This document shows, one piece after another, positions 388 to 60,495 of a stretch of 64,000 bases of DNA; within the stretch, counting starts at the first letter, position 1; the number at the start of each line of letters is the position of its first letter. The notes beneath the pieces are model-generated. The model ran no database searches. It saw only the letters and a list, made by a program, of their open reading frames with translations, and was not told the DNA's origin. Origin of the DNA: Arenicola marina. Its lineage: Eukaryota > Annelida > Polychaeta > Arenicolidae. The stretch spans positions 38,495,670 to 38,559,669 of the forward strand of contig OZ025248.1 of the NCBI GenBank assembly GCA_964019135.1, in the 5' to 3' direction. The position numbers and the translations under genes are program-made.

Positions 388-2637
388 ATGCTGTTCCAGG
401 TTAGAGATTGGTGTGACGGCTTAGCGAGATGTCACGTGACGGCCTCCACCTGGTACCCTGCTGAAAGTGGCGGGCGAACCAGCCTGACAGTGAGCTATAC
501 CTGTAAGCACAGTGGCTCAGGTACCGAAATATTAATAGGTAAACAATCAGAGTTATTTCTTAAGGCCCCCATTTTGAACACGACAACGTGCTACTCCAGA
601 TACTTCTCCCAACAGTTGTGTTCTGGCAACACGACGATTGAGATAACGGACGCCGTGTATGGAGTGAGTCCGTGTCAGGCAAATATCACTTATTGCTGTC
701 CGGATCCCGGCGACTGCACCATCCCGGTCGAACAGAATGATCCTGTCGGTCACACTGACTATTACAATGAAATACTGGTCTGGTGCAACACTAAACAGAC
801 ATGTGATAAACTTCAAGCGCAATGGATTAGCAGCATTAACAATGGGTGTACAGGTGTCTCTGGCCCCTCGGATTACGTCACGCTCTACTACATGTGTCTC
901 ACAGTTATCTTCACTGTATGTTTGGTTTTTGCAATTTTGGGCGCCTGGTTTTATTTGTGATCTTTTCTTTGGTCATAATGCCCCGACACTTTCCGCCTGG
1001 ACAATATCACCTGGAATTTACCTCACTGCACTGAACAACTTTTCTTATGCAATAATTTATTGATATCTGATAATGCTTTTTCCTTAAATGATCACACATT
1101 ACACGCTTCTATCAATATAAATCGACACTACGTATCATTCCGCAGACATGGAAATTTTCAATCCAGTTATAAAACTAAAGTCTGAATATGTTTTTGCGCT
1201 GTAGATGCAGAAAGGCTCACCACTACTACAGCAGCTGCATCGCCTGACATAACCATACCAACGAGTCCCACCACTCTCTCCACAATCAAACCAGGATCAG
1301 CGACTCCAGTTACTCCGGTATCCACCACAACCTCGACTGTGGTGTCCATGGCGGCCGATACCACTACTGACAGCGCTCTGGACCACAGTGATGGTAAAGC
1401 ATTCGTTCAGTCACACACTAAAACTAATTCTGAAATTGTATTCCGATATTTCCCTTAACGTTTACTGGAAACGCATTTTCATGCTGCTCTTATATTAATC
1501 GCAAAAAAACTTATATTTACTAAATGTACACAAGACAAATTAAGGGTCATATTTATATACTTCAATAATATAATCAGTCGTACGGACAGAAAAAAGAACG
1601 TTATACGGAAAGTATTTCGTAAGGTTCGTTTATTGCTTGGCACCTCGTACCGTGCCTGCCTCTCTACCTGTCGTTTTTCTTGACAGCCACCCTAACCATA
1701 GTGATAATAGCGGTGATTGTGGCGGTGGTCGTGGCTGTGGTGGTGGCCGTGACGGTCTGCCTGATCTGCAGGTATCGCAAATGTCCATCAATGCTAAACA
1801 AGACATAATGACATAGAATATTAAACACATGAACGCCAGCTCCACTATCACTCATATTAGGGGATGCAACCTTGATTAATCAGCTTCTTGACTGTATAAT
1901 CCACGCGCTTGACACATGACGAAGAACGGTTTATATATGGCATATGTTGATCACTTTCTTTCATTATAAGTACGTCCACTTTCAGCCATGTCGCTCTTTT
2001 AACTAATAACATTCATTCTTTTCCAACAGAAAGAGGAATGCTAACAGCGCGTCACAAGAGAATAAAACCGCCGCTGCCCAGTCACGGTCAGAGAGGATGA
2101 CGTCACACGCATCCGCGTGTGTTGATGACGTAGAACCGTATCACAGCGCGACCTGGTGGCGGCCCAGGGCCACGAGGACCGCCACCAGGTCAGGGGTTGA
2201 ATGACGTCATCAAGCCGGCCACAAACCCGTATGACACCTGTCAGCCCCTCACTAAACCAATGGTTGCCAGAAAGCCAAAACTCAATCCCAAGGCCGTAGA
2301 TAAGCCTAACATCGGAGCGGATCTCTACACCGAGGTGGTTAAGGTGCGGCCGAGGAAGAATGTGGTGCTCGATAAGTCCCCGGGGGAGGAGGATGTGGAG
2401 GCCAATAATAATGGGTCTGGTATGACAGAGGCGGGGGACAGGGCATCGTACGACCTCGTGATGCAGGAAAACCATGGGTACGGTACCCGGCAGGGGGTGG
2501 GTGGGGAGGGGGAGGGAGAGAGGCACGGCGTGGATGGGGAGGGCCTCCCCCACGAGAACCGGCAAGATGGCGACCAGGACGAACAGACAGACCCAGACTA
2601 CGACCTGGTCATGACAGAAAACAACGCCTACAGCTAG
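388..2637 (+). pseudogene. A1: class A SUEL-lectin receptor, 5'-truncated and frameshifted
   Basis: Decayed class A receptor. Exon 1 (388-904) keeps only the 3' half of lectin domain 1 (WCDGLARC onward) and all of domain 2 (ITDAVYGVSPC ... YVTLYYMC). About 0.23 kb holding the start codon and signal peptide is deleted compared with A4. The exon 1 donor is CAG-TT instead of CAG-GT, so reading would run on to a stop at 958-960 through a hydrophobic end (TVCLVFAILGAWF). The stalk exon (1205-1393) and transmembrane exon (1687-1771, IIAVIVAVVVAVVVAVTV) are intact with good splice sites. The tail exon starts at 2030. It has a 2-base deletion near 2150 compared with A4, after which the class A tail (LYTEV, YDLV, stop at 2635-2637) stays open. 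Probably a pseudogene; a 190-aa membrane-anchored fragment is possible but has no signal peptide. Confidence 0.8.
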
Positions 2638-5477: not shown

Positions 5478-8168
5478 ATGGAACGATCGGTCATTTTCAC
5501 GTGTGCGCTACTCATTGTCGGGTGTGGCGCCTCAGACTCCAGACAAACATGTGTCGATCGTACAGAAGATTTACGGTTGGACTGTGGAGTTGGTGTTGTC
5601 TACGTGGAAGGAGCAGCAGCGCTGGGAGACTGTAGCGAGTCCGGGACGTGTTGCCAGGATACCAGCCAGGGTGATGACGTCATCACGGCGCGGGCTAGAG
5701 ATTGGTGTGACGGCTTAGCGAGATGTCACATGGAGGCTTCCACCTGGTTCCCTGCTGCAAGCGGTGGGCGAACCAGTTTGGCAGTGAGCTATATTTGTAA
5801 GATTGGCACGCCCAAGGTGACAGGGATGAGAATGTCAGTGGGTAAACAACCAAAGTTGCTTGTTTATGCCCCCATTCTAAACACGACAAAGTGCTACCCC
5901 AGTCCCTTCTCCCAACAGCTGTGTTTTGGCGACATGACAATTGCGATAACGGACCCCGTGTTTGGAGTGAGTCCTTGTAACCTGGATAATTCCACAAAGT
6001 GCTGTCCGGATCCCGGCGACTGCATCATCCTAGTTCAGGAATCGGGTCCTGCATATTACAATGAGACTCAGGTGTAACAATAAACAGACATGTAATGGTC
6101 TTCTTGCCCAGTGGTACGCCTTCCCATACATGTGGTGTCCAGGTGCCAAGGGCGCTACGCATTACGTCACGCTCCACTACATGTGTCTAACAGGTAATAT
6201 ACAGACTGTTGCACGTTTAGATTTGAAGCCAACGGTAGATCACATGGTGTGTACTTGCAAACTCTCGCATTAACGCGTTTTCAACTAACAACACAGTATA
6301 CTGTCTAAGATATCACACATTTTTTAACATATAAAATATTTTGCCTTTTCCCACTTGAATATATGTCTACAATGTGTCAGTTATATTCACAAGGCGAAGC
6401 CTATTACATCAACAAGCTCCTCTCGGGTAGTTATTCTTTACTTCCTGCTCATTATTTCATTTGAAAATTTGGATTTCATGTTAACCATTGGACCGACAGC
6501 GTCCGATTTCAGCTTTTAGCATGTTCTTTGCACTGTTTTGTTACTTCAATCTATAAATAGGTTGAAACCAATACTGAATGCATATTTTCTTTATGATGTA
6601 CGCGCTGCGATGCATACTTCCAATTGTGCATAGAGAAGCTAATTCCACTACGTGTTTTAATTTTAACAACCGTGCTACGTAACATCATTGACTAGCAAGA
6701 TATTTCTCATGCCCATAATTTCAGACTATGTAAGTTTGTTGATATGCCTTCTAGATGCAGATCGGCTGACAACTACAACAGCTACAACGACTGACGTCTC
6801 CATCTCCACGACCAAACCAGAATCTTCCACAGTTGCGGTGTACACAGCAACCCCAGATGTTGTATCCATGGTGACCAATGTCAGAACTGAGAGTGACGCC
6901 AGTGAAGGTAATCCAGCCGTCCAGTCTCCCATAATAGTGACAATGTCTCTTTTTGTCGGATTTGTCATTCGAACATGTCACTGCACAATTAGGTCAACAT
7001 CTTTTTTATCGAGGCTGATTTCCTTATGATACGTGGCGCGAACCCCGAATTCCTGCACGGTGGCTGGGATGGCGGACTTCACTCGCGACACAGAGCGTTA
7101 ACGTTCAGGCCACGTCGGTCATATATGTAATTAAATCGATCGATTGGATATATACAAAAGCATCACTTGATTAGTGGCACAACTCCCATAGAAGATGAAG
7201 GAAAATGATCAACCATTAATCACAACTTTGGCTTCGTAAAGTTAGATTGTTCTCTTGATCGCGTTATAATTCCTGTTTTAATTGAGTTAGCAGTCCTCTC
7301 CAGCTGTGTAGCTTCGTACTTTACTTGACAGCACCCCAGACCGCGGTGATAATAGCGGTGGTTGTGACGGTTGTCGTGGTCGTCGTGGCCATGGTGGCGG
7401 CAGTGACGGTCTGCATGGTGTGCAGGTATTACTAACGTTCATAGTTACAAAGCAACCTTCAATAACATTCGCAATCAGATATCTTGAGTGCCGCCTTAAG
7501 CAGTTTAATCACGTTCATGTGTGCGCCAAGATATCGGTTGGTCTGTCCGGTGCCTTTTTAGTAACTAATACCTGTCCAGACCGAGTTAGAGAATTGACTA
7601 AGAAGAACTTGGTGTCCCAGGATTGATATCGATCCGCGATTATGACAAAGAACGATTTAAGGGTTCGCACGTGCAGATATGAACTTAAACATTGCCATAA
7701 TACTTACAAACTGTTTCAAGGAATATTGATATGTTAACTAATGCAAAATTCCGATTCTATTCACGCAGAATGAGAAAATCCAACACCACGTCCGAAGAGA
7801 GTAGAACTGTCGGTGCCCAGTCACCTGGTCTGGACAACTCGATTCACCTCCAGGAAGCTGAGCCTCTTCTACAGTCACCGCCTCGGATGATGAAGTCACA
7901 TGCATCAGCGGGTGTTGATGACGCAGATCCGTATTGCGTAACTTCGCAATCATCCCATGGTTTCTATGACGTCATCAAGCCGGTCATGGAAGCCTACGAA
8001 CCCTTAGGGCCCTACAATAAACCTGAGGTCGCCGAGACAACGGGAGATTATGTCAACGTTGTCGATACGACAATGGAAGGAAGGGCTCTGTACACTGAGC
8101 TTGCCCCGGGAACGGACGTCGTGCCAGGGAAGGCCCCGGGTGAGGGGACAACACCAGGGATAGACTAG
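5478..8168 (+). pseudogene. B1: class B SUEL-lectin receptor, interrupted
   Basis: Four-exon class B gene. Exon 1 (5478-6193) encodes a signal peptide (MERSVIFTCALLIVGCG), lectin domain 1 and domain 2. A 5-base deletion near 6064 compared with B2 causes a stop after 199 aa, within domain 2. The stalk exon (6755-6907, STTKPESSTVAVYTATP), transmembrane exon (7332-7425, Val-rich) and tail exon (from 7769) keep splice sites and phase. The tail has DPYCV, GDYVNV and ALYTEL, then ends early at TAG 8166-8168 where related tails have a Trp; the usual last 17 or so residues can still be read downstream to 8218. With two lesions the full receptor cannot be made; a secreted 199-aa lectin fragment could be. 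Confidence 0.75.
7020..7125 (-). repeat. tRNA-derived SINE relic
   Basis: Read in reverse, it has an A-box-like TGGCCTGAACG stretch and a B-box-like GGGTTCGCG. The same element occurs, whole or partial, at about 11,434-11,500, 20,086-20,140, 20,640-20,700, 21,140-21,196, 21,716-21,812, 47,030-47,120, 56,192-56,250, 56,756-56,815, 57,321-57,375, 57,832-57,893 and 58,396-58,490. It always lies in the intron after a stalk exon or between stalk exons, so it was copied along with the genes. Confidence 0.5.
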
Positions 8169-8199
8169 GCAATGAACGACCCCATGCTGGTGGAAAGCC

Positions 8200-8700
8200 A
8201 TCAGTACGGCATGAGATAGGGGGTGGGTGGGGAGGGCTATACATGCTCAGAGGGAATAGCTTCCTTGAAGGGGTGGGTGGGGAGGGCCATACATGGTCAG
8301 AGGCAATAGGTTCGTTGGAGGGGTGAATGGGGAGGATCATACATGGTCACTTGGGCGGTGATGGAAGGGCGGCGGGGGGGGGGGGGGGCATGACGGTCAC
8401 AGGGAATAAGCTCCTATGAAGGGTGGTTGGGGAGGCTTGTGACCGCCAGCAGGGAATAGGCTCCTGGGAGGGGGTGTTTGGGGAGGGTTTTGACCGCCAG
8501 CAGGGAATAGGCTCCTGGGAGGGGGTGGTTGGGGATGGTTGTGACGCCCATCAGGGAATAGGCTCTTTGAATGGGGTGGTTGGGGAGGGCCATACGTGGA
8601 CAGAGGGAATAGGCTGGTGGGAAGGGTTGGGTGGGGAGGGCCACGATGGCTGCGATGAGTACGGGTCCTGAAGGGGGGTCGGTTAGGGAGGGTGGGGGTG
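8200..8700 (+). repeat. G-rich tandem repeat after B1
   Basis: Degenerate units of about 50-60 bases, each with 'agggaataggctcctgg' followed by a G-rich run (gggtggttgggga). The same repeat lies just after the tails of B2 (about 13,105-13,220), C1 (22,813-23,180) and C2 (60,742-61,130), inside the probable 3' UTR. The long open frames on both strands here come from the repeat. G-quadruplex formation is possible on the + strand. Confidence 0.8.
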
Positions 8701-9929: not shown

Positions 9930-12900
9930 ATGAAGCGACCGTCGATTGTCGCGTGTGCGCTACTCATTCTCGTGTGTGGCGCGTCAGACGCCAGACAAAC
10001 ATGTGTCGATCGTACAGAAGATTTACGGTTGGACTGTGGAGTTGGTGTTGTCTACGTGGAAGGAGCAGCAGCGCTGGGAGACTGTAGCGAGTCCGTGACG
10101 TGTTGCCAGGATCCCATCCATGGTGACGACGTCATCACGGCGTGGGTTAGAGATTGGTGTGACGGATTAGCGAGATGTCACGTGACAGCCTCCACCTGGT
10201 ACCGTGCTGCGAACCGGGAGCGAACCAGCCTGGCAGTGAGCTATATGTGTGACGTTAGGGCGCACATTAGGTCAGGTATGAAAATGTCAGTGGATCTACC
10301 AGCAGAGTTACGTGTGATGCCCGCCATTCAAAACACGACACAGTGCTACGGCAGTTACTTCTACCAACAGTTGTGTTTTGGCGACACGACGATTGAGATA
10401 ACGGACGCCGTGTATGGAGTGAGTCCGTGTAACTCGGACGGCCTTCCCACTGACTGCTGTCCGGATCCCGGCGACTGTACCATTCCGGTCGAAGAGAAGG
10501 ATCCTGACGACCACCCTGACTATTACAATGAGATTCTGGTCAGTTGTAACAATAAACAGACATGTGTTGACCTTCGAGCGGAATGGATTAACAACATTTA
10601 CCAGTGGTGTCCAGGTGTCTCTGGCACCACGGATTACGTCACGCTCCACTACATGTGTCTCACAGGTAATACGAACAGCTGGGTGTCTTTATTTGTATAT
10701 TCATCCAACATGATCAAAATGCAACGCTAATTAAGATAATAAAATGACATCATATCATTAGTGGTTTTCACATTTCGCTTAGACAGTATAAAATCCTATA
10801 TTTTTAAAATTCTGTGGGCCTTTGTTCTATTCACTCGTGTAATTAGATTGAAGCCAATATCGAACCCATATTTTCTAGAATGTATGCTATGAACATTTTT
10901 CGGTTTACGTAGATTACACTAATTTAGCAATGAGTTTCAATTTCAATAACTGTGCTACGTAACATCATTGACTTACAACATATGTCCTTGAATCCAATAA
11001 GTAGATTCTTCCATAAAATGTAAAACGTTCAGTATTCGATTTGTAAACGTCAACATGTAAATAACATGTTTCCATGAACATAAACATTAGCACATCACAT
11101 CATGACCATGATTTCTGATTATGAAAATCTGCTTGACTCTCTAGACGCAGATCGGCTGACGACTAGAACAGCTGCAACGACTGATGTAACCATACCAAGT
11201 ACCAACCCCATCTCGACGATCAAGCCAGGGCCAAGGACGGTAGCTGTATCCATGGCAACCACAGATGTGCTATCCATGTGGACCAATGCCGTGAATGATA
11301 GTGACTCCAGTGAAGGTAATTAAGCCAGCCGTCCAGTCTCACCCAATGGTGACACTGACACTGGTTATCAGCTATCCCATTGGAATATATCACGTATCGC
11401 CTTACATCGAGGCCAACTGATTTGACTTGGATAGAGGGGCGCGAGCCCCCGAGTTCTGACACGATGGCAGGCCTGGCAGATTTCACTCGCTACAAAAACT
11501 CCCTCTATATCGGAGAGTGAGCAACGAAACAGCCCCCCTAGCGCCAGAGTTGTGAAATTCCCACACGATAACTGGCTAATCGAGTAAATTTGCGCGGCGA
11601 GTGCCAAAAGTTGCCTTGTAACACTGAATAGTGGTAGGTCTTGGTTCGAAAGTAGTTGTAAATGTTTCACAAATGTTCGTAGAAGCCAGTTAGGTGATTG
11701 ATTTGGAGATTCAGCCATTAGTTTTAGAGATACAAAGCATTGAAGTGGGTGTTGACGCTCCGTGGCAGCCGTTGAGTCGTATAACCTGTTCTTATTTAGC
11801 TCGTCGCGGCGCATCCCAGGCCTTCAGCATAGCCTTCTTCTATTGGCCTGACGCAAAAAAACCGTGAGCCAGCCACTCTAGCTCTTCCGTTAAAGGGGTG
11901 ATGCCTCTAGCCGAGGCTAGTAGGAATGGTTCTCCTCACTTCTACATTTTCCTAAATGGATCGATCGATCCGATATAAAAAAATATAAAGTTTTGGTCGC
12001 CACCATCAATTAGCAATTGTATGTATTTACCACGATGGGATTAGAAGCACAACCGACTTTTGAAAAGTATAACAATTGAGAAAAATTATGTTTCATTGAG
12101 AAGAACGTGGCTGGTCTTCGGCATCATAACGTTCGAGCCTTGTCTTTATGGAGTTACCATTGCAGCTAATTATCTTTGTAATTTAGTTGACAGCTCCCCG
12201 CAGACCACGGTGATAATAGCGGTGGTTGTGACGGTTGTCGTGGTCGTTGTGGCTGTGGTGGTGGCAGTGACGGTCTGGATGGTGTACAGGTAATGTCCAC
12301 AGATACACTCTATAATAGCCAGCCCGCAATGAACCCGTGAGTGCCGCATGATACAACTGAATCACGTTAATGTGTGGTCCAATGCGGCGGTTGATGGTCT
12401 TTTCGTTGCTAAACAAACCAAAAGTCTCCAGAATCTTTCGAATTATAATGAACATGAACTCAACATGAAAAACATTTGTTACTGATTTTGTAGAATTTAT
12501 AAGGAAAACCAATGGCCAAAGTCGATATTAAAGGGTGCTAGTGCGTAAAAATATCATCTATTCATTCACTAAACATTGCTCAGTTATTTTGTAAATGCTG
12601 ATCTCTGTTGATATTTTAACCAATAATATTCCCATTCTATACCGACAGAAAGAGGAGAGCCAACACCACGTCCGAAGGGAGTAACACTGTCGGTGCCCAG
12701 TCACCAGGTCTGGACAACTCGATTCACCTCCCGGAAGCTGAGCCTCTTCCACAGTCACCGCCGCGGATGATGACGTCACACGCGCCAGCGGGTGTTGATG
12801 ACGCAGATCCGTATTACGTAAATTCGCAATCATCTCCTGGTTTCCATAACGTCATCAAGCCGGTCACGGATGCCTACGAACCCTTGGGGCCCTACAATAA

Positions 12901-13102
12901 ACCTGAGGTCGCCAAGACAACGGGAGATTATGTCAACGTTGTGGATACGACAATGGAAGGAACGGCTCTGTACAGTGAGCTTGCCCGGGGAACGGGCGTC
13001 GTGCCAGGGAAGGCCCCGGGTGAGGGGAACACACCCCTAGGGATGGAAGGGGCATTTGACGACCTCATGCTGGTGGAAAACCATCAGTACGGCACGAGAT
13101 AG
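9930..13102 (+). CDS. B2: class B tandem SUEL-lectin transmembrane receptor (487 aa)
   Basis: Intact four-exon gene: 9930-10665, 11145-11315, 12187-12289 and 12649-13102, together exactly 488 codons. Residues 1-21 are a signal peptide (MKRPSIVACALLILVCG). Two SUEL/Gal_lectin-like domains follow (about 24-107 and 139-243), recognised from LDCGVGVVYV...WCDGLARC...SYMC and LCFGDTTIEITDAVYGVSPC...CNNKQTC...YVTLHYMC. A Thr/Ser/Pro stalk of about 57 aa comes next, then a Val-rich helix (IIAVVVTVVVVVVAVVVAV) and a basic KRR stop-transfer. The tail has DPYYVNS, EAYEPLGPYN, GDYVNVVD, LYSEL and HQYGTR. The transmembrane exon needs an acceptor 7 bases upstream of the family site to stay in frame (see findings). 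The start is the ATG at 9930, aligned with the paralogues. Likely a plasma-membrane glycan receptor signalling through phosphotyrosines; the ligand is unknown. Confidence 0.82.
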
Positions 13103-18231: not shown

Positions 18232-21200
18232 ATGCTTAAAAACATCGCCATGTTAACAATGGATCGTCATGGTAACAACCGTCAACGTACTTGGTTGGTA
18301 CTTCCGTTGTTGCCACTAATGGCAGCATGGTTGCTGTGCAACACCCCAATTGGCCACGTGCAAAGTCTCTCGTTGGACCAACCTTTCCAAGGTAATGCCC
18401 CCGGTTTTTGCCGGGATAGTCACCCGGGATAGATATCGTTTTTTTACGCAGCAGAGCAGACTAAATTTCTGATAAAGTACACATAATTATCAGCAGTAAA
18501 TTGATGATGATACAGAGCCATTAAAGTCGCCACTTAGGAACAGAACACGTGGGGGATAATATAGGTCTAGAAAAGGACGCGGACCATTATCATTGTCATG
18601 AAGTCTCTTTTCAGCTGATGGTCGGAATGATGTTGATCCGTGTAACAAGGGGAAGTACTGTGTGGCGGACACTGTCGTGGCCAACCCGGACAATTGTACC
18701 ACTTACTTTGTGTGCGAACCTAGCGGCTGGATTGAAATGCCTTGTAATCCCAATCTGGGGTTCAATCCTGAGACAGGACAATGCGACTACATGACCGAGG
18801 TCACGTGTCAGCCACCCTGTCCCCCCTTCACCGGCCCCACCACCACCGAGGGACCCACCATAGCACCAGGTATGTGTCAATCAATTAAAAGGTGACTGCT
18901 ACAACCGTCCCCCCCCCCTTCACCGGACCCACCACCACCGAGGGGCTCACCATCTCACCAGGTATGTGTCAATCAATTAATAGGGTGACTGCTAATACCC
19001 TGCCCCCCCACCCCCCTTCACCGGCCCCACCACCACCGAGGGGCTCACCATCTCACCAGGTATGTGTAAATCAATTAGTAGGTGACTACTAATAATCTCG
19101 CCCTCCACCCGCCCCCCCACCCCCTTCACCGGCACCACCACCACCGAGGGGCCCACCATCTCATCCGGTATGTGTAAGTTAATTAATAGGGTGACTGCTA
19201 ATACCCTGCCTCCCCTTCCCCCAACCCCCTTCACCGGCCCCACCACCACCGAGGGGCCCACCATCTCATCAGGTATGCATCAATTAATAGGTTGGTTTAT
19301 ATTCCGGACGCTTTAACCACTTTTGGTCATATCGCCTCAATGGGAGAAGGGAGTTTGGGGCCATGTCCCCGGGGTAAACATGGAATCTTTATCCTGCGAC
19401 CACACAGACATGGCCACAGCGGGGCGCAAACCACCTACCCACGTGCCGTTGGCTCTCAGTTGCCAAAATCACTCAAGGCTAGCGCTGTAACCCACTGCTC
19501 TATCTAGACGGCCCCTTCAATGAATAATCGAATGCTAATACCCTGTCCCCCTCCGTCCTTTTGTGGCTCCACTACCACCAATGTGTCCACCGAGGTGGTA
19601 CGAGTATCTTGTTACACAATCAACAATGCACAACGTGTAAGATATCACTGTGAACATGGTTCACAGTTCACAATAAATCTGTCCACACAGTTCACAATAA
19701 ATAACGACATTACCCGCCACCACAACGTCACACACTGCCACGTCAAGCGTCGGTCACGCGGCGTCATCGACAACACAACGTGACACTACAGTGTTGTCTT
19801 CTACGACGTCTGACAGCCGACCACTAACCGCCACCACCACCAGCGAGGGGCCCACCATCTCGCCTGGTATGTGTCAATCAATAATTAGATGATTCTAATA
19901 CCCTGTGTCGCCCTCGCCCCATCCCCCCCCCGCCCCCTCATTGGAACTAAAACCACCAAGGGACCCAATATCTCACTGGGTATGTGTCAATCAATTAACA
20001 GGGTGATTGCTTGCTCATTCGAATATGTCACGTCACGCTTACCTAAGATAGTTCTCCATCGAGGCCGACTGATTTTCTTCTAATAGTGGGACGCGAACCC
20101 CGAATTTCGGCACGATGGCTGGGCTGGCCGAGTTCACTTTTCAATTAATAGGGTGACTGCTAATACCCTGCCTCCCCCCACCTATACCTCATCGTCCCAA
20201 CCACCACCAAGGGACGTGATATAATGATTATGATTATGAATAATCACTAGACAAATGTCCATTTAAGTATTGGCGCCGCCTACGTGTGGATTATGAATAT
20301 GGTCCCAGATTTGTCGCACAGCTCACAAGAGTGGACGGGGAGCGCCTCACCTGCAGCCATTGCAGCATCCACAACGACTGACGTAACCGTATCAACGAGT
20401 ACCACCTCCATCTCCACGACCAAACCAGAATCTCCCACAGTTGCCGTGTCTACAGCAACCCCGGATGTTGTATCCATGGTGACCAATGTCAGAACTGAGA
20501 GTGACGTCAGTAAAGGTAATCCAGCCGTCCAGTCTCACCAAATAGTGACAATGTCTCTTCTTGTTGGATTTCTCATTCGAATATGTCACGTTACCCTTAC
20601 CTAAGATAGTTCTTCATCGAGGCCGACTGATTTTCTTCTAATAGTGGGACGCGAACCCCGAATTTCGGCACGATGGCTGGGCTGGCCGAGTTAACTTTTC
20701 AATTAATAGGGTGACTGCTAATACCCTGCCTCCCCCACCCATACCTCATCGTCCTAACCACCACCAAGGGACGTGATATAATGATTATGATTATGAATAA
20801 TCTCTAGACAAATGTCCATTTAAGTATTGGTGCCGCCTAAGTGTGGATTATGAATATGGTCCCAGGTTTGTTGCACAGCTCACAAAAGTGGACGGGGAGC
20901 GCCTCACCTGCAGCAACTGCAGCATCCACAACGACTGACGTAGCCGTATCAACGAGTACCACCTCCATCTCCACGACCAAACCAGAATCTTCCACAGTTG
21001 CGGTGTCTACAGCAACCCCGGATGTTGTATCCATGGTGACCGATGTCAGAACTGAGAGTGACGCCAGTGAAGGTAAGCCAGCCGTCCAGTCTCATCCTGA
21101 GAAAAATTTTCATCGAGGCTGACTGAATTCCTTCTAATAGTGGGACGCGAACCCCGAATTCCGGCACGACGGCTGGGCTGGCAGCGTTCACTTTTCACAA

Positions 21201-22433
21201 TTAATAGGATGACTGCTAATATCCTGTTTCACCACATCACCTCCCCCCCCCTCCGCCACCTCATCGGTCCCACCCCCACCAAGGGGCCTGATATAATGAT
21301 TATGATTATGAAAAATCACTAGACAAATATTCCATCTAAGTCTATTAGCGCTGCCTAAGTGTGGATTATGAATATGGTCCCAGATTTGTCGCACAGCTCT
21401 CAAGAGTGGACGGGGAGCGCCTCACCTGCAGCAACTGCAGCATCCACAACGACTGACGTAGCCGTATCAACGAGTATCATCTCCATCTCCACGACCAAAC
21501 CAGAATCTTCCACAGTTGCGGTGTCCACAGCAACCCCGGATGTTGTATCCATGGTGACCGATGTCACCGCTGAGAGTGACGCCAGTGAATGTAAGCCCGC
21601 CGTCCAGTCTCACCCAATAGTGACAATGTCTCTTCTTGTCGGATTTGTCATACGAATAGGTCACCTTAACCTTACCTAAGATAGTTTTTCAACAAGGCCG
21701 ACTGATTTCCTTCTAATAGGGGGGCGCGAACCCCGAATTCCGGCACGACGGCTGGGCTGGCAGAGTTCACTGGCGACACAGAGCGTTAGCGACCAGGCCA
21801 CGCCGGTCATACATGTAATTAAATCAATCGATTGGATATATACAGATGCATCATTTGATTAGGCACAACTGTCATAATCAGAACTTTGGCTTCGTAAAGT
21901 TAGATTGTTCTGTTTATCCCATTATAATTCCTGTTTTAATTGAGATAGCAATCTTCTTCATCTGAGTACCTTCGTACTATACTTGACAGCCCCCCAGACC
22001 GCGGTGATAATAGCGGTGGTTGTGGTGGTTGTCGTGGTCGTCGTGGCTGTGGTCATGGCAGTGACGGTCTGCATGGTGTGCAGGTACTAGTAACATTTAT
22101 CAGGGATTTAGGATTAATGAGGAACATAGGCGTTAAAATAGAGCTTAAGAAAGACGTGTCGCCACCAGGTCTCGACAATCGGCAACAGACGATCTACTGC
22201 AATGGTATACTGAAAAAGAACGATTTAAGGGTTCACACATGCAAATATTAATTCCTTAAACATTACTATAATACATACAAACTGTTTCAAGCCATATTGA
22301 TATGTTGACTAAAGCAAAATTCCTATTCTATTCCGAAAGAAAGAGGAGACCCGACACCATGTCCGAAGATAGTAAACCTGACGGTGCCCAGTCACAAGGT
22401 CTGTACAACACGATTTTACCTCCGGGAAGCTGA
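18232..22433 (+). CDS. C1: CBM14 chitin-binding receptor on class B stalk and TM; short tail (359 aa)
   Basis: Predicted exons: 18,232-18,391 (signal peptide, LVLPLLPLMAAWLLCNTP), 18,615-18,869 (CBM14 peritrophin-A domain, six Cys, with CTTYFVC and GFNPETGQCDY, then a Pro/Thr stretch), three 159-base stalk exons (20,357-20,515; 20,914-21,072; 21,432-21,590), transmembrane exon 21,990-22,083 and tail exon 22,340-22,433. All phases fit and the sum is 360 codons. CBM14 domains bind chitin. The stalk, helix and first tail residues (KRRPDTMSEDS) match class B lectin receptors closely. The frame stops early at TGA 22,431 after LYNTILPPGS; an extra T in a T run near 22,416, compared with C2, shifts the frame. 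A second CBM14 exon present in C2 is deleted here. It could be a short-tailed chitin receptor or an early pseudogene. Confidence 0.62.
18870..19282 (+). repeat. Tandem Pro/Thr exon-end and donor units
   Basis: About four units of some 115 bases, each repeating the end of the CBM14 exon ('accaccaccgaggggc', 'ccatctcaccag') plus its donor GTATGTG and the intron start 'tcaattaatagggtgactgc'. None has an AG acceptor before the coding-like part; a C-rich tract runs directly into it. Splicing them in is therefore unlikely. C2 has a longer version at 51,728-52,340. Confidence 0.7.
19283..19515 (-). repeat. tRNA-derived SINE in C1 intron
   Basis: Read in reverse: tRNA-like head (AGAGCAGTGGGTTACAGCG, B box GGTTTGCGCCCC), then a body ending in 'ggttaaagcgtccgg' and 'aaccaacc'. 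The same family is nested in C2 at 52,340-52,955, where the B box reads GGTTCGAGCCC. Confidence 0.7.
19596..19871 (+). pseudogene. Remnant of second CBM14 exon in C1
   Basis: Matches the C2 exon 53,168-53,548 only in the intron before it and in the Thr/Ser-rich 3' part ('gacattacccgcc' onward, ending in a good donor at about 19,866). The acceptor and the chitin-binding domain (about 0.3 kb) are missing and replaced by short 'gttcacaataaat' repeats. The exon cannot be spliced in as a domain. Confidence 0.65.
20085..21700 (+). repeat. Tandem units of about 0.52-0.56 kb, each with a stalk exon (x3)
   Basis: Each unit holds a SINE fragment, a C-rich intron piece ('gggtgactgctaatacc'), 'gatataatgattatgatta', a block opening 'tgtggattatgaatatggtc', and a 159-base phase 1-1 stalk exon. 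Copy II has four units (56,190-58,395). An in-frame AG ('cctaag') before 'tgtggatt' could give a longer exon form in most units. Confidence 0.75.
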
Positions 22434-22812
22434 GCCTCTCCCACTGTCACCGCCGCGGATGATCACGTCACACGCGTCAACGGGTTTTGATGACGTTTCT
22501 CCGTCTTACGTAAATTCACAATCATCTTCGGATTTGTATGGCGTCATCAAGCCGGTCTCGGAGGCCTACGAACCCTTGGGGCCCTACAATAAACCTGAGG
22601 TCTCCAAGACAACGGGAGATTATGTCAACGTTGTCGATACGACAACGGAAGGAATGGCTCTGTACACTGAGCTCGCCCCGGGAACGGGCGTCGTGCCAGG
22701 GAAGGTTCCGGGTGAGGGGAACACAACACCAGGGATGGACTGGGCAATGGACGACCCCATGCTGGTGGAAAACCATCAGTACGGCACGTTCCTGTCAGGG
22801 GATGGGTGTTGA
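22434..22812 (+). pseudogene. C1 orphaned class B tail
   Basis: Beyond the early stop the class B tail is readable in the next frame for over 120 codons: EAYEPLGPYN, GDYVNVVDTT, ALYTELAPG, VENHQYGT, ending LSGDGC and a stop. Good conservation means the break is recent, or that the extra T near 22,416 is a sequencing error and C1 has a full tail. Confidence 0.65.
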
Positions 22813-38636: not shown

Positions 38637-41065
38637 ATGGAACGATCGGTCATTTTCACGTGTGCGCTACTCATTCTCGGGTGTGGCGCGTCAGACTCCA
38701 GACAAACATGTGTCGATCGTACAGAAGATTTACGGTTGGACTGTGGAGTTGGTGTTGTCTACGTGGCAGGAGCAGCAGCGCTGGGAGACTGTAGCGAGTC
38801 CGGGGCGAGTTGCCAGGATACCAGCCATGGTGATGACGTCATCACGGCGCGCGTTAGATATTGGTGTGACGGCTTAGCGAGATGTCACGTGACGGCCTCA
38901 AACTGGTACCCTGCTGAAAGCGGGGGACGAAGCAGCCTGGCAGTAAAGTATATTTGTAACGTTAGAGCGCATATTAGGTCAGGTACAGAGAGGCCAGTGG
39001 ATTCACTAGCAGACTTGCGTGTGATGCCCGCCATTCAAAACACGACAAAGTGCTACGGCAGTTACTTCTCCCAACAGTTGTGTTTTGGCGACACGACGAT
39101 TGAAATCACGGACGCCGTGTATGGAGTGAGTCCATGTAACTCGGATGGTAATCCCACTCACTGCTGTCCGGATTCCGGCGACTGCAACATCGATGTCGAA
39201 CAGAAGGACCCTAAGGAGCACCCTGACTATTACAACGAGATTCTGCTCAAGTGTAACAATAAACAGACATGTGATGACCTTCAGGCGCAATGGATCAGTT
39301 ACATTTCTAAGTGGTGTGCAGCTGCCCCTGACAACACGGATTACGTCACGCTCCAGTACATGTGTCTCACAGGTATCTCCACTGTATGTTTGGTTTTTGC
39401 AATGTTGGTCGCCTGTTTTTTCCGTGATCTTTTCTTCGGTCATAATGCCCCGACATTTTCAGCCTGGACAATATCACCTCGAATTTATCTCACCGCACCG
39501 AACAACTTTTCTTATGCAATAATTCATTGATATCCGATAATTAGTTACTTAAATGATCACAGATTACACATTTCTATCAATATAAATCGATGCTACATAT
39601 CACTCCGTAGACATGGAAATCTGAATATGCTTTTGCGCTATAGATGCAGATAGGCTCACCACTACTACAGCAGCTGCATCGCCTGGTGTAACCTTATCAA
39701 CTACTACCACCACTCCCTCCACAATCAAACCAAGATCAGCGACTCCAGTTACTGAGGTATCCACCGCAACCTCGACTGCGGTGTCCGATACCACTACAGA
39801 CAGCGCTCTGGACAGCAATGATGGTAAACCATTCCCTCAGTCATACACTAAAACTAATTCTCAAATTGTATTATGATATGTCCCTTAACGTGTACTTGAA
39901 ACACATTTCCATGTTGCTCTAACATTAATCGAAAACAAAGCTTACATTTATCAAATGTACACATATTGGCAAGCCAAATTAACAGTAATATTTATATACT
40001 TCAATAATATAATGAGCCATACCGTATAACAGAAAAAAGAACATTATAGGGAAATGATTTCGTAAGGTTCGTTCATTGCTTGGCACCTAGTACCATGCCT
40101 GCCTCTCTACCTGTCGTTTTTATTGTTAGTCTCCCTAACCATAGTGATAATAGCGGTGGTTGTGGCAGTAGTCGTGGCTGTGGTGGTGGCCGTGACGGTC
40201 TGGCTGGTCTGCAGGTAACGCTAATGTCCAAAAAATGCTAAACAAAACATAATGACATAGAATATTAAACACATGAACGACGGCTACACTAACTATTACT
40301 CATATTATAGGATGCAACCTTGATTAATCAGCTTTTTGACTGTATAATCCACACGCTTGACACATGATTCAGAACGGTTATATATGGCATACACTTTCTT
40401 TTAATATATGTACGACAAGTCGCTATTTTGACTAATAACTCTCATTTTTGTCCAACAGAAAGAGGAAAGCAAACAGCACGTCACAAGAGAATAAAACTGC
40501 CGCTGCTCAGTCAGCGTCAGGAAGGATGACGTCACACGTATCAGCGTGTGGTGATGACGTAGATCCGTATCACACAGCGCGACCTGGTGGCGGCCCAGGG
40601 CCACGGGGGCCGCCACCAGCTCAAGGGTTGAATGACGTCACCAAGCCGGCCACAAACCCGTATGACACCGGTCAGCCCCTCACTAAACCTATGGTTGCCA
40701 AGAAGCCAAAACCGAATCCCAAGGCCGTAGATAAGCCTAACATCGGAGCGGATCTCTACACCGAGGTGGTTAAGGTTCGGCCGAGGAAGACTGTGGCGCT
40801 CGATAAGTCCCCGGGGGAGGAGGATGTGGAGGCCAATAATAATGGGTCTGATATGACCGAGGCGGGGGACAGGGCATCGTACGACCTGGTGATGCAGGAA
40901 AACCATGGTTACGGCACCCGGCAGGGGGTGGGTGGGGAGGGGCAGGGAGAGGGACACGGGGACTGGGAGGGTCTCCCCCACGAGGGCCGCCAAGATGGCG
41001 ACCAGGACGAACAGACAGACTCAGACTACGACCTGGTCATGACAGAAAACAACGCCTACAGCTAG
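38637..41065 (+). CDS. A4: class A tandem SUEL-lectin transmembrane receptor (535 aa)
   Basis: Best preserved class A gene; exons 38,637-39,372, 39,644-39,823, 40,130-40,214 and 40,459-41,065 sum to 536 codons. Signal peptide 1-20 (MERSVIFTCALLILGCGASD). SUEL-like domain 1 about 24-107 (LDCGVGVVYV, WCDGLARC, LAVKYIC) and domain 2 about 139-243 (LCFGDTTIEITDAVYGVSPC, CCPDSGDC, CNNKQTC, YVTLQYMC). The usual rhamnose-lectin YGR and DPC motifs are absent (YGV). The stalk is Thr/Ser/Pro-rich, 246-306. The helix IIAVVVAVVVAVVVAVTV has Ala at every fourth position and is followed by RKRK. The 200-residue tail has DPYHTAR, GPPPAQG, NPYDTGQ, DLYTEVVK, ASYDLVMQ, HGYGTRQ and DYDLVMTENNAYS. Exon 1 could also read into the intron to a stop at 39,528-39,530, adding a hydrophobic end. 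Likely a plasma-membrane glycan receptor. Confidence 0.85.
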
Positions 41066-45241: not shown

Positions 45242-48100
45242 ATGGAACGACAGGTCATTTTCACGTGCTCACTACTCATTCTCGGGTGTGGCGCGTCAGA
45301 CTCCAGACAAACATGTGCCGATCGTACAGAAGATTTACGGTTGGACTGTGGAGTTGGTGTTGTCTACGTGGAAGGAGCAGCAGCGCTGGGAGACTGTAGC
45401 GAGTCCGTGACGTGTTGCCAGGATACCAGCCATGGTGATGACGTCATCACGGCGCGGATTAGAGATTGTTGTGACGGCTTAGCGAGATGTCACCTGGAGG
45501 CTTCGACCTGGTACCCTGCTGCAAGCGGTGGGCGAACCAGCTTGGCTGTGAACTATGTGTGTAATGTCGCCTCACACAGTAGGTCAGGTGTGGAAATCTC
45601 AGTGGATAAACTCGCAGAGTTGCGTGTTTTGCCTGCAATTTTAAGCACGACAAAATGTTACGCCAGTTACTTCTCCCAACAGTTGTGTTCTGGCGACACG
45701 ACGATTGAGATAACGGACGCCGTGTATGGAGTGAGTCCGTGTAACTCGGATGGTAATCCCAGGTACTGCTGTCCGGATCCTGGCGACTGCACCATTCCGG
45801 TCGAAGGGAAGGATCCTGACGAGCACCCTGACTATTACAATTAAATTCTGGTCAAGTGTAACAATAAACGGACATGTGATGACCTTCAAGCGCAATGGAT
45901 TCCCAACATTTCCCAGTGGTGTGCAGGTGTCTCTGGCAGCACGGATTACGTCACGCTCCACTACATGTGTCTCACAGGTATCTCCACCGTATATTTTTTT
46001 TTGGCAATTTTGGGCGCCTGGTTTTGTTCGTGATCCTTTCATCGGTCATAATGCCCCGACACTTTCCGCCTGGACAATATCACCTCGAATTTACCTTAAT
46101 AAAAAAAACTGGCTATTATAAGTTACAGGTGTAACAATAAACAGACATGTGATGGTCTTATTACCTCTTCGAGCGCCTTTCCATACATGTGGTGTACACG
46201 GGTGTCTATGGCACCACGGATTGCGTCACGCTACACTACATGTGTCTCACAGGTAATACGAACCGAACCGAATCACGTTTTGATTTGAAGCCAACGGTGG
46301 ATCACATGGTGGGTACTTGCAAACTCTCGCATTAGCGTGCTTTCAACAGAGTGTACTGACATATCACACACTTTTGATGATATAAAATCTTTCGCGTTTC
46401 TCACTTGAATATATGTCTACATTGTGCCAGTTATATCAACAAGGTGAAGCCCATTACATAACAAGCGCCTCTCGGGTAGTTATTCTTTACTTCGTGCTCA
46501 GTATTTCATTGGAAAATTTTGATTTCTTGTTAACCATTGCACCGATAGCGTCCAATTTCAGCTTTTAGCATGATCTTTGCACTGTTCACTTCTATAAATA
46601 CTTAAATCTACTTCTATTTGTGCATAGAGAAGTTAATCCCACTATGTGTTTCAATGTTAATAAGCGTGCTACGTAACATCATTGACTGAAAAGATACTTC
46701 TCTTGCCCCTAATTTCAGACTATGTAAATTTGTTGATACGCCCTCTAGATGCAGATAGGCTGACAACAACAACAGCTACAACGACTGACGCAACCATATA
46801 CACGAGCGTCACTTCCATCTCCACGATAAAATCAGGAACCCCAAATGGTGCGCCACCCACAGCAACCCCGGATGTTGTATCCATGGTGACTGATGTCACA
46901 ACTAAGACTGACGCCAGTGAAGGTAACCCAGCCATCCAGACTCACCCATTAGTCTCAATCGAATATGTCACGTCACGCTTACCTAGAAGAGTTTTTAATT
47001 TCTTTCTGATGAGGGGTGGGGGGGGGCGCAGGTGGGGCGCGGACCCCGAATTCGGCCACAATGCCTGGGCTGAGTCCACTCGCGACACAGAGCGTTAACG
47101 ACCAGGTCATGGTCGTCATATATGTAATTAGATCGATCGATTGGATATATACAGATGTATCACTTGATTCGAGGCACAACTGTCATAATCAGAACTTTGG
47201 TTTCGTAAGGTTAGATTGGTCTCTTGATGGCGTTATCATTCCTGTTTTAATTGTGTTAGCAGTCCTCTCCAGCTGAGTACCTTCGTACTTTACTTGACAG
47301 CAACCCAGACCTCGGTTATAATAGCGGTGGTTGTGGCGGTTGCCGTGATCGTCGGGGCTGTGGTGATGGCCGTGACGGTCTGCATGGTGTGCAGATACGA
47401 CTGATTTTTATCAGGGATTTAGGATTAATGAGGAACATAGGCGCTAGTACATCTTAAGTAAGGAGTGTCGCCACCAAGTCTCGACAATCGGATACAGACG
47501 ATCTACTGCTCATGTAATAATGACAAAGAACGATTCAAGGGTTCACACGTGCACATTTCTCATTAAATATTGCTACAATACATACAAATTGTTTCAAATC
47601 ACATTGATATGTTAACTAATGCAAAATTCCGAATCTATTCGTGCAGAATGAGAAAATCCAACACCACGTCAGAAGACAATAAAACTGTTGGGGCCCAGTC
47701 ACCAGGATAAGACAACTCGATTCACTTCCCGGAAGCTGGCCCCCTCCCACAATCACCGCCGCGGATGATGACGTCACACGCACCAGCGGGTGTTGATGAC
47801 GTTGCTCCGTATTACGTAAGTTTACAATCATCCCCGGAATTTTCTGACGTCATCAAGCCGGTCACGGAGGCCTACGAACCTTTATGGCCCTACAATAGAC
47901 CTGAGGTCGCCCCGACAACGGGAGATTATGTCAACGTTGTCGATACGGCAATGGAAGGAAGGGCTCTGTACACTGAGCTTGCCCGGGGAACGGGCGTCGT
48001 GCCAGGGAAGGTTCCGGGCGAGGGGAACACAACACCAGCGACGGACTGGGCAATGAACGACCTCATGCTGGTGGCAAACCATCAGTACGGCACGAGATAG
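45242..48100 (+). pseudogene. B3: class B receptor, interrupted B1/B2-type hybrid
   Basis: Exon 1 (45,242-45,976) has the signal peptide, lectin domain 1 and domain 2, but TAA at 45,842-45,844 ends the frame after 200 aa; downstream, CNNKRTCDDLQAQW to CLTG is still readable in frame. A second, partial copy of the end of domain 2 (46,130-46,255), resembling B1, lies in the intron. The stalk exon (46,749-46,922) is open. The transmembrane exon (47,301-47,394) has lost its donor (CAG-AT). The tail exon (from 47,647) has TAA near 47,707, then a readable class B tail (GDYVNVVDTA, ALYTEL, HQYGTR, stop 48,098-48,100). The 5' flank and intron match B1 while the 3' flank matches B2. A secreted 200-aa lectin could still be made. 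Confidence 0.78.
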
Positions 48101-51092: not shown

Positions 51093-54000
51093 ATGCTTAA
51101 AAACGTCGCCATGTTAACAATGGATCGTTATAGTAACAACCGTCAACATTGGCTGGTACTTCCCTTGTTGGCACTAATGGCAGCATGGTTGCTGTGCAAC
51201 ATCCCAATTGGCCACGCCCAAAGTCTCTCGTTGGACCAACGTTTCCAAGGTAACGCACCCAGGTTTGGCCGGGACAGTCACCGGGGATAGACATCGTTTT
51301 TTCACGCAGCAGAGCAGACTAAAATTTTGCTAAAATACACATAATTATCAGCAGTAAATTGATGATGATACAGAGCCATTAAAGTCGCCACTTAGGAACA
51401 GAACACGTGGGTGATAATATAGGTCTAGAGAAGGACGCGGACCATTATCATTGTCATGAAGTCTCGTTTCAGCTGATGGTCGGAATGATGTTGATCCGTG
51501 TAACAAGGGGAAGTACTGTGTGGCGGACACTGTCGTGGCCAACCCGGACAATTGTACCACTTACTTTGTGTGCGATCCAAGCGGCTGGAATGAAATGCCG
51601 TGTGATGCCAATCTGGGGTTCAATCCTGAGACAGGGCGCTGCGACTACATGACCGAGGTCACGTGTCAGCCACCCTGTCCCCCCTTCACCGGCCCCACCA
51701 CCACCGAGGGGCCCACCATCTCACCAGGTATGTGTAAATCAATTCATAGGGTGACTCCCAATACCCTGCCCCCCCACCCCTCACCCCCCTTCACCGGCCC
51801 CACCACCACCGATGGGCCTACCATCTCACCAGGTATGAGTAAATCAATTAATAGGGTGACTCCCAACACCCTGCCCCCCCCCCCCACACCCCACCCCACT
51901 CTCACCGGTCCCACCCACACCAAAGGGCCCACCATCTCATCCGGTATATGTAAATTAATTAATAGGGTGACTGCTATTACCCTGCCCGCACCCACCCCCC
52001 TTCACCGGTCCCACCACCACCGAGGGGCCCACCATCTCACCAGGTATGAGTAAATCAATTAATAGGATTACTCCCAATACCCTGCCCCACCCCACCCCAC
52101 TCTCACCGGTCCCACCCACACCAAAGGGCCCACCACCTCATCCGGTATGTGTAAGTTAATTAATAGGGTGACTCCCAACACCCTGCCCCCCCCCCCCCAC
52201 ACCCCACCCCACTCTCACCGGTCCCACTTACACCAAAGGGCTCACCATCTCACCAGGCATGTGTTAATCAATTAATAGGGTGACTGCTAATATCCTCCCC
52301 CCCCCCCCCCACACACCCGGCCCTCTCACTGGTCCCACCCCGACCAAGGGGCCCACCACCATGTCCCCGGGGGTAAACCTCTACTCTTTGCGAAGAAATA
52401 CATGAGATCTTTATCCTGCGACCCCACACACATGGTTGGTTGGTTATTCAGGACGCTTTAACCACTTTTGGTCATATCGCGTCAATGGGAGAAGGCAGGG
52501 AGAGTGGAGCCATGTCCTCGGGGGTAAACCTCTACTCTTTGCGAAGCAATACATGGGATCTTTATCCTGCGACTACACACACATGGTTGGTTGGTTATTC
52601 AGGACGCTTTAACCACTTTTGGTCATATCGCGTCAATGGGAGAAGGAAGGGAGAGTGGGGCCATGTCCTCGGGGGTAACCCCCTACTCTTTACGAAGAAA
52701 GACATGGGATCTTTATCCCGCGACCACACAGACATGGCCACAGCAGGGCTCGAACCACTGACCCACATGCCGTTAGGCTCTCAGGTGACCAGAGCACTCA
52801 ATGCGAGCGCTCTAGCCCACTGAGCTGTCGCGCCGGCCCTCCACACACACATGGCCACAGCGGGGAGAAAACCACCCATCTACGTGCAGTTTGGCTCTGA
52901 GGTGCCAAAATCACTCTGGCTACCGCTGTAACCCACTGAGCTATCGAGGCGGCCCCTTCAATTAATAATCGAATGCTAATACCCAGTCCCCCTCTCTCCT
53001 TTTGTGTCCCCACTACCACAATGTGCCCACCGAGGTGGTACGAATATATTGTTACACAATCAACAATGTTTAAGATGTCACGGCGAACATGGGTCTAATA
53101 GATCTGTCCTTGCGTTATATCCAGTGTTAACGTTACCTCTTACATTGTCCCCGCCGCTGCGGCTTAGGTTTGTGTCACTACGTGGCGCTGCCATGTACCG
53201 CTGGGGAGAAGTTCGCCGATGTCTCCAGCTGTGAACATTATTACGAGTGCGTCGTCTTAAACACACTCCGCAGACTGCAGTGCCCGGGGGGACAGGTTTT
53301 CGACATCTACCTCTCGATGTGTAATGTCGTCACCCCGGGCTTCGACTGTGACTACCGATGTACAACCACCGGGGCGCCAACGACATTACCCGCCACCACA
53401 ACGTCACACACTGCCACGTCAGTGTCGAGCGTCGGTCACGCGGCGTCATCGACAGCACAACGTGACACTACCGTGTTGTCTTCTACGACGTTGGACAGCC
53501 AACCACTAGCCACCACCACCACCAGCGAGGGGCCCACCATCTCGCCTGGTATGTGTCAAGCAATAATTAGATGACTCTAATACCCTGTGTCGCCCTCGCC
53601 CCCCCCCCTCCCTCATTGGAACTAAAACCACCAAGGGACCCAATATCTCACTGGGTATGTGTCAATCAATTAACAGAGTGACTGCTTGCTCATTCAAATA
53701 TGTCACGTCACGCTTACCTAAGATAAGTTCCATCGAGGCGGACTGATTTCCTTCTAATATCGTTAAGTCACCAACTTGTTTCAAAGGTAAAATACCGACC
53801 TTAATTGATGTTGTGATTATAAATGTGTCGAAGCGCTTACGAGATGTATCATGTATAGATACGGGCCTCAGCGATTTTCACCATATGTGATGCGTAGCAA
53901 CGAAAATAGAAGTTCCCATTAAGCAGCAGAAACGTGTCTATTATCGAAGTTTAAACATTTTGATTAGATTAAATACAAAGACGTTCTAGCATCGGTACCT

Positions 54001-59127: not shown

Positions 59128-59238
59128 CCGCCGCGGATGATGACGTCACACGCGTCAACGGGTTTTGATGACGTTGCTCCGTATTACGTAAATTCACAAT
59201 CATCTACGGATTTGTATGACGTCATCAAGCCGGTATCG
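59128..59238 (+). pseudogene. C2 orphaned tail, first part
   Basis: In-frame continuation of the class B tail beyond the TGA (PPRMMTSHASTGFDDVAPYYV...YDVIKPV), cut off by the insertion at 59,239. Confidence 0.6.
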
Positions 59239-60495
59239 TAGGGTAATAAAATGGCCCGTATAGATTTACGTAACATATTGTATATTTCAACTGATAGCTT
59301 AAGAATAAGAGACGGAGACACTAAGATAGAGGCAGACTTAAAAGACATAAGAATAAAAGACGCATGTGCCATGACGTAATAACCAGTAGACAGACAAAAG
59401 GACAAAAGAAGGTGACAATTGGTACCACGGTCAAGAGCAGCAGAATCTGACCGTCGGATGGAATGCGTAAACCCTTACAACATCGACCACGAAGAGACAG
59501 GCATAGAAAACTTCAAGGCAGTAAAGATGACAGCAATCGACGGCTTTAACAACAACAAAGAGAATAATTAGATGGAAAAATAACCAATTGGCAGTCGTAA
59601 CCAATGAAGCAATCAAAAGCCAGTGCTAGCTCGCCCAGTCTGAGGACAGCAATCGATGACTCAAACTATAACAATAACAAAGAGACTAAATAGATGGTAA
59701 AATAAGCAGAGTGACAGCCAGCTCGCCTGGTCTCATGATGCGACACGCAGGTGACTCTAACAAGTCCAGAGGTTCACAAATTCTATTTGCTCAAAGCACT
59801 GGCGCGAAACGGTTACTGAATTAAGAAAACGACTAGGCCCAGATGCGACTAATGGGACGGTATAAATAGACAGGACAAACTTTGAAAAAAAAACTAAGAC
59901 TGGTAGGAAGACACTGAGAGAGACAGCAAGGCGAGGAAGAAGGCAGGCCAGGGATAGGACCGGGTGTGGCGCGTTTTGGGATGGCGCGTATCGGTTTTCG
60001 TGGACACGGTTATAAACTTCGCCGCCGGACCAGTTATGATGTAAAAGTCTAGGACCACGGTTGGACTATGGACACGACTCGGAACTGATACACGGAGCCA
60101 GGGCTAAGTTAAGTATATACGGTCCCAGCATAGAACACGGTTTCGGTTACCCGATCGTGAGAAATCATTGTATACCGGTTCTATCGCTAGGAGGCTTGTA
60201 ACTTGCCCGCGCGTAGCGTAAAGCCGAAGTTACTGAATTAAGTATTACAACCAAATATTAAAGAAATCAGAGTTAGGTTTAAAAGAATAGACAAATAGCC
60301 TACCCCGTGGCTGCATTGTTAAAGTGTAGACAAACCCCGTTTACGATGGATAGTAAATAAATCTATATCTAAACCCTACATGGTTGTTGGTGTCTTGTAT
60401 TCGTTCCACGTGAGCATTCCCCATGCTACAGATTATCGTGCTAGTTTCAGTCTGACAACGACAGTCGGACGAGACCCTAAATGAGCACGACCATA
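59239..60495. mobile_element. 1.26-kb insertion in C2 tail, LTR-like, family uncertain
   Basis: Absent from C1 at the same place. Flanked by a near-identical 9-base direct repeat (ccggtatcg at 59,230-59,238; ccggtctcg at 60,496-60,504) if the ends are placed there. No coding capacity is seen. It has a TATA box (tataaata at 59,861) and a late AATAAA (60,356-60,361), an arrangement like a solo LTR, but clear TG...CA ends are not visible. A non-autonomous DNA transposon is also possible. It looks like a fossil without genes. Confidence 0.55.

Follow-up and report, generated by a model that had tools for sequence, protein, structure and literature searches.

Several described systems resemble the gene arrangement reported here. 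EVA-1/C21orf63 is described as having two rhamnose-binding-lectin domains and one transmembrane (TM) segment (PMC2430599). In the cited account of VCBPs, immune proteins of the tunicate Ciona, a chitin-binding domain is joined to another recognition domain (PMC5465252), and amphioxus PGRPs are reported with a chitin-binding (hevein-like) domain joined to an immune domain (PMC4610682). FREP, CREP and GREP of Biomphalaria snails are presented as paralogous families in which a shared IgSF module is combined with different lectin-type domains (PMC10875847). In lancelets, 1-1 phase exon shuffling is reported to be extreme and to yield new domain pairs (PMC4284660). Here we describe a 64-kb stretch of DNA from the annelid Arenicola marina (contig OZ025248.1, positions 38,495,670 to 38,559,669; 64,000 nucleotides, hereafter the window), which holds a tandem array of related lectin-type membrane receptor genes and fragments. 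Seven genes were modelled, namely A1, A2, B1, B2, B3, C1 and C2, and the modelled copies are on the + strand. C1 and C2 carry CBM14 chitin-binding heads on a stalk, TM and tail cassette related to that of the B genes. An ectodomain swap through phase-compatible exons onto the B-type cassette is well supported by the sequence, the tail tree and the frames that are open up to the TM segment; the swap appears to be real as DNA, whereas a working receptor is unproven. The explanation we favour, with slightly better than even confidence, is that one phase-1 exon-shuffling event gave rise to CBM14-mucin-TM proteins which are now tail-less and drifting.

The exons modelled for the two C genes are given below. 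Splice-site percentiles, here and throughout, were derived from scoring matrices and are approximate.

18232..18391, + strand: C1 exon 1, coding for the signal peptide; frame open, hydrophobicity highest at residue 22 (KD19 1.76), end phase 1.
18615..18869, + strand: C1 exon 2, CBM14 and Thr/Pro linker; Pfam CBM_14 E 2e-11, phase 1-1.
20357..20515, + strand: C1 stalk exon 1; 159 nucleotides (nt), phase 1-1.
20914..21072, + strand: C1 stalk exon 2; 159 nt, phase 1-1.
21432..21590, + strand: C1 stalk exon 3; 159 nt, phase 1-1.
21990..22083, + strand: C1 TM exon; 94 nt, phase 1-2, KD19 peak 3.73.
22340..22812, + strand: C1 tail exon; stop after 30 residues in the frame of the homologous acceptor, weak acceptor at 22344.
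51093..51249, + strand: C2 exon 1, coding for the signal peptide; highest KD19 value 2.21.
51473..51727, + strand: C2 exon 2, first CBM14; Pfam E 4.7e-11, phase 1-1.
53168..53548, + strand: C2 exon 3, second CBM14; Pfam E 2e-6, phase 1-1, weak acceptor (percentile 69.9).
56468..56626, + strand: C2 stalk exon 1; 159 nt, phase 1-1.
57034..57192, + strand: C2 stalk exon 2; 159 nt, phase 1-1.
57604..57762, + strand: C2 stalk exon 3; 159 nt, phase 1-1, GT donor absent.
58111..58269, + strand: C2 stalk exon 4; 159 nt, phase 1-1.
58669..58762, + strand: C2 TM exon; 94 nt, phase 1-2, KD19 peak 3.74.
59019..60741, + strand: C2 tail exon region; TGA after 35 residues, followed by an insertion at 59237-60495.

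A preliminary description of this DNA had proposed CBM14 ectodomains for C1 and C2, and these were confirmed, as were start codons at 18232 (C1) and 51093 (C2). On the profile scores, the CBM14 identity of the two heads is certain. Against a PF01607 gathering cut-off of 22.1 bits, the head of C1 scored 44.3 bits and the first domain of C2 scored 43.1 bits, each over positions 1-53 of the 53-position profile, while the second C2 domain scored 28.3 bits over positions 6-47. C1 exon 2 also matched residues 432-484 of the chitinase 6g9c in a PDB phmmer search (E 3.4e-5). C1 has one CBM14 domain and three stalk exons and C2 has two and four, the CBM-coding part of C2 exon 3 being without a counterpart in C1. 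No lectin-head match was found between the C start codons and their stalks. Tandem repeats of about 100 bp, at 18821-19288 and 51679-52358, copy the end of the CBM14 linker together with a GTATGTGT-like donor, and in C2 the frame passes through several of them (open reading frame 51460-52050). Their use as linker mini-exons in C1 was rejected, as none of the 14 AG sites in 18876-19300 made a fitting acceptor: those of percentile at least 95 abut a donor, and the GGTGAC ones, of percentile 81-86, run immediately into TGA in phase 1.

The stalk, TM and tail exons of the C genes had been described as copies of those of the B class, and the comparison bore this out (C1 tail 85-88%, C1 TM 89-92%). 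The C1 tail showed 86.0%, 87.7% and 85.2% nucleotide identity with the tails of B1, B2 and B3, as against 62-63% with four A tails; for the C2 tail the values were 84-85% with B and 62% with A. Similarly, the C1 TM exon was 91.5, 90.4 and 89.4% identical to those of B1, B2 and B3, and 81-82% to those of the A genes. All seven C stalks were 90-94% identical to the B1 stalk; C1 stalk exon 2, for instance, showed 94.2% identity to it over 138 columns, compared to 71.8% to B2 and 78.6% to B3. In a tree of the tails, B and C separated from the four A tails with a bootstrap value of 100 and C1 grouped with C2, also at 100; placement of the C tails among the B genes was weak (78, 60). The region 21432-22788 of C1 matched 46764-48094 of B3 over 1.4 kb with a BLAST E value of 0, thereby ruling out chance as the source of the C/B homology. 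Since the C stalks are nearest to B1 and the C tails are not, the alignments suggest gene conversion or a mosaic origin of the C cassette. As A tails and B tails alike are found behind lectin heads, we infer that the likely newcomer to the cassette is the CBM14 head.

Exon phases had been said to match throughout, and in the C genes they did: the signal exon ends in phase 1, the CBM14 exons and stalks are 1-1 and the TM exon is 1-2, with start phases from the signal exon to the tail exon of C1 (22340 onward) of 0,1,1,1,1,1,2. The statement failed for two of the B genes, as the B2 TM exon has 96 nt and not 94, and a GT is missing from the TM donor of B3. The donor of C1 exon 1 (AAG/gtaatg) ranked at percentile 98.2, and a GT donor was found in 6 of the 7 C stalk exons. 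In every one of the seven C stalks, the B-type stalk acceptor (ctag) is matched by gtgg in the alignment, and a nearby AG of the same phase preserves the stalk frame. A pair of AG acceptors spaced by 9 nt is present at each C stalk exon (20357, 20914, 21432, 56468, 57034, 57604, 58111); the two share a phase, and thus either would preserve the frame. The spliced C1 chain was open to the TM segment over 328 codons, with no stops as compared to 14 and 22 in the other frames. The C2 chain, with the donor-less stalk exon omitted, was open over 454 codons, with no stops as compared to 16 and 25. None of 2000 shuffles stayed open for either gene; this control is generous, since the choice of exons took the frame into account.

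A different reading of these exons is that each C locus holds two neighbours, a secreted CBM14 gene and, after it, a headless B-type relic. The 1.5-kb gap between CBM14 and stalk in C1, with AATAAA at 19672 and 19696, fits such an arrangement, as does the unspliced CBM14 frame of C1, which soon meets a stop. However, a strong phase-1 donor (CAG/gtatgt, percentile 99.6) follows CBM14 in both copies, no lectin head remains upstream of the C stalks, and relics of the linker lie inside the stalk units; we consider this reading very unlikely. Decayed copies of the CBM14 linker were found upstream of all three stalk exons in C1 and of three of the four in C2. All 22 linker-pattern matches on the + strand of the window fell within the two C genes; the surroundings of the A and B genes had none. 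As the relics sit within the stalk units, linker and stalk would already have been neighbours when the unit multiplied.

Comparison of the window with itself (best 120 of 286 matches) revealed big duplicated stretches. Among these matches was a block, interrupted by gaps, that starts in a B-gene tail (12608 / 47604), takes in the C gene and extends to about 24009 / 61968. C1 and C2 are thus most likely descendants of one block duplication, and the head swap is counted once and not as two independent swaps. In C2, LINE-like reverse transcriptase fragments were observed at 53968-56005, in the intron 5' of the stalk exons (RVT_1 E 3.3e-8 at 54695-55036).

The preliminary description had further proposed that the hybrids would work and share one signalling tail, and this was not supported. 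After the TM exon of C1, the tail-exon acceptor matching that of the B genes leads into KRRPDTMSEDSKPDGAQSQGLYNTILPPGS and a stop, giving 30 cytoplasmic residues. An additional base near the start of this exon places the distal tyrosine part out of frame with this homologous acceptor. In C2, the TGA after 35 residues is followed by an insertion of 1259 bases flanked by a 9-bp (8/9) target-site duplication, CCGGTATCG/CCGGTCTCG; the ends of the insertion had only a 10-nt, 90% inverted pair, and no second copy of it was found in the window. Neither gene therefore has the immunoreceptor tyrosine-based activation motif (YxxL/I-x(6-8)-YxxL/I) in frame, the motif being out of frame from the homologous acceptor in C1 and lying beyond the stop in C2. 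As the breaks are not the same in C1 and C2, both most likely postdate the duplication. A shared working signalling tail in C1 and C2 is not supported by the exons as read. Neither gene enters the tyrosine-rich tail through the splice site expected, and what looks real is thus the swap of heads but not a sharing of signalling.

A different frame keeps the distal tail of C1 open, including YGVIKPVSEAYEPL and YVNVVDTTTEGMALYTEL, and can be reached from an acceptor 4 nt downstream. The model using it has 484 amino acids (aa), is open to 22812 and includes both tyrosine pairs (YxxI-x6-YxxL). It would make the C genes working receptors with CBM14 on a B-type tyrosine signalling tail, provided that the C1 extra base is an error or that the downstream acceptor is used. 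We consider this unlikely, as this acceptor ranked at percentile 39.5, compared to 90.0 for the homologous one, and C2 is interrupted by a stop and an insertion of its own. The least probable of the readings we considered is that heads of unrelated folds were swapped on one stalk-TM cassette, that both CBM14 copies became tail-less by separate mutations, and that the 4-nt acceptor pair of C1 could switch between a tether and a full tyrosine receptor.

The remaining modelled genes are as follows.

400..2637, + strand: A1, 5'-truncated head with its donor lost, A-type tail.
5478..8219, + strand: B1, two-domain SUEL-like head, stalk, TM and tail; frameshift in the head (exon of 716 nt vs 736), stop near the end of the tail.
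9930..13102, + strand: B2, open head, stalk and tail; TM exon of 96 nt, by which TM and tail are shifted out of frame.
38637..41065, + strand: A2, complete, 535 aa; two SUEL-like domains, stalk, one TM, A-type tail.
45242..48100, + strand: B3, head and tail each interrupted by nonsense codons; TM donor without GT.

A2 is the only whole gene of the seven; A1 and all three B genes are broken as modelled. The activation motif is present in B1, whose head is broken, and B2 and B3 lack its first tyrosine; in the A2 tail no YxxL/I/V pair was found at the spacing sought. Further copies of the A-type tail, 87-92% identical to those of A1 and A2, are present at 25110-25790 and 31870-32526.

The heads of the A and B genes consist of two tandem cysteine-rich domains in a single exon and are probably SUEL-like. 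The preliminary description had called the B heads SUEL lectins. In our Pfam search SUEL_Lectin (PF02140) was listed for most heads and never above the cut-off, the best score being 16.9 bits as against the 31.4 bits required. The sub-threshold listings covered three of five whole heads (E 0.0082, 0.066, 0.71) and all three single domains scanned separately (E 0.041, 0.07, 0.39). For B2, DUF5481 ranked above SUEL, both with the whole head (E 0.074) and with the second domain (E 0.025). A PDB sequence search with the lectin heads gave no match up to E 1 (profile) or E 10 (single domain), and two AlphaFold models were unusable (pLDDT 29 and 39). No SUEL match at E <= 0.01 was obtained by Pfam in the stop-masked + strand frames of 1-18102, 23000-32502 and 37800-47702; a RIFIN line (E 0.0068) in the + strand scan was under the RIFIN cut-off and was disregarded. 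SUEL-like head fragments were also seen at 29324-29839, with a signal-peptide-like start of its own, and at 62313-63001; SUEL_Lectin was not listed for the part of the latter at 62456-63001. Omega values of 0.44-0.91 (10 pairs) indicate that the lectin heads were under weak constraint.

No such constraint was seen between the C copies since their separation. Nonsynonymous to synonymous differences between C1 and C2 were 9:1 in the CBM exon, 7:3 in the signal exon (48 codons), 7:2 in the TM exon and 11:2 in the tail up to the insertion. The pooled count was 34 to 8 (dN/dS about 1.4), and it leaves out the second CBM14 exon, which only C2 has, the tail beyond the C2 insertion, and the stalk exons, because no one-to-one pairing of the stalks could be fixed; single stalk pairs were too noisy (omega 0.48-3.18, 21 pairs). 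The pooled data fitted an omega of 1 (P 0.23), while values of 0.5 (P 0.003) and 0.3 (P 7e-6) were rejected. Differences between the two genes amounted to 108/1468 (7.36%) in coding and 291/3723 (7.82%) in non-coding sequence. Exon-versus-rest comparisons, which count alignable non-coding sequence only, gave 14.0% in exons and 18.1% in the rest for B1-B3, and 12.2% and 17.2% for C1-B1, suggesting some constraint; the latter pair is consistent with some past constraint, a point in favour of working receptors. C1-B3 gave 15.3% and 16.0%, hence hardly any exon advantage, and the omega of 1.0-1.8 for the C1 tail against the B tails also speaks against such receptors.

With constraint absent, a dead gene stays the main rival. 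C1 and C2 would then be pseudogenes, relics of a formerly working hybrid amid a mostly dying array. Such an origin agrees with the rejection of an omega of 0.3, with the broken state of A1 and the B genes and with the breaks in both C tails, C2 having in addition lost a stalk donor and received a LINE-like intron insertion and a second insertion in its tail. However, the signal peptide to TM frame has stayed open in both genes despite the roughly 7% difference between them, and we regard this as a possible, though rather doubtful, account.

The single-shuffling explanation that we favour has points against it as well. The splice sites are uneven: the stalk acceptors rank at 91-95, the C2 CBM14 acceptors at 82.4 (first) and 69.9 (second), and the TM donors of C1 and C2 both at 87.2. 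The extra base of C1 lies within a short T run and may be a sequencing error, whose correction would put the full tail in frame. The neutral-looking divergence of C1 and C2 would be expected of dead genes and equally of live genes free of constraint. Under this explanation, exons for a signal peptide and for CBM14, the latter of phase 1-1, would in a single event have come to stand upstream of the stalk, TM and tail half of a lectin receptor gene of B type. The block carrying the 3' end of a B gene and the hybrid would later have been duplicated, and the 159-nt stalk exons amplified in tandem to three and four copies. If spliced as modelled, which we infer, the products as the sequence stands would be type I membrane proteins with a signal, 1-2 CBM14 domains, a Thr/Ser-rich mucin-like stalk and a Val-rich TM segment. 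Their cytoplasmic part would have 30-35 residues beginning with KRR, and as it lacks the tyrosine pairs, the C proteins would not signal alone. In whichever cell type they may be made, they would most likely act as a surface tether for chitin or for microbial or mucus glycans, under little or no constraint.

The array also contains long minisatellites at 34382-36345 (15 bp), 41645-42697 (32 bp) and 15963-16962 (39 bp), the 15-bp array being open in several frames on both strands. Rfam and tRNA scans of the window gave no matches, and a scan of IMG/VR for relatives gave 8 pattern matches, none of which was confirmed.

The C genes thus represent a readable swap of recognition heads between membrane receptor genes via symmetrical exons, in which a frame-keeping acceptor shift and stalk amplification are visible. 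If C transcripts exist, the locus would show an invertebrate lectin-receptor array gaining a chitin-binding branch; if they do not, it would show the decay of such hybrids. Among the matches listed from the open-licence literature, we found no description of a cassette shared by SUEL-like and CBM14 heads. A2 may have an EVA-1-like layout, with two tandem SUEL-like domains of sub-threshold score and one TM segment, and the single-pass form of EVA-1/C21orf63 with two extracellular rhamnose-binding-lectin domains would correspond to the layout of A2 and the B genes. In contrast, the cited description of EVA-1 does not mention a chitin-binding paralogue on the same stalk and TM. VCBPs, as described, resemble the C genes in pairing a chitin-binding domain with other modules, but they are secreted and have V-type Ig domains, whereas the C genes have a TM segment and a mucin-like stalk; no Ig domain was listed in the C-gene spans scanned, 18100-22901 and 51000-54502, whose three + strand frames gave CBM_14 as the only domain at E <= 0.001. 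The FREP, CREP and GREP proteins are likewise described as secreted, and their shared part is the IgSF region, whereas the C and B genes share stalk, TM and tail. The 1-1 phase shuffling reported for lancelets is the same mechanism as that proposed for the C genes, but there it is a genome-wide process and does not concern this family.

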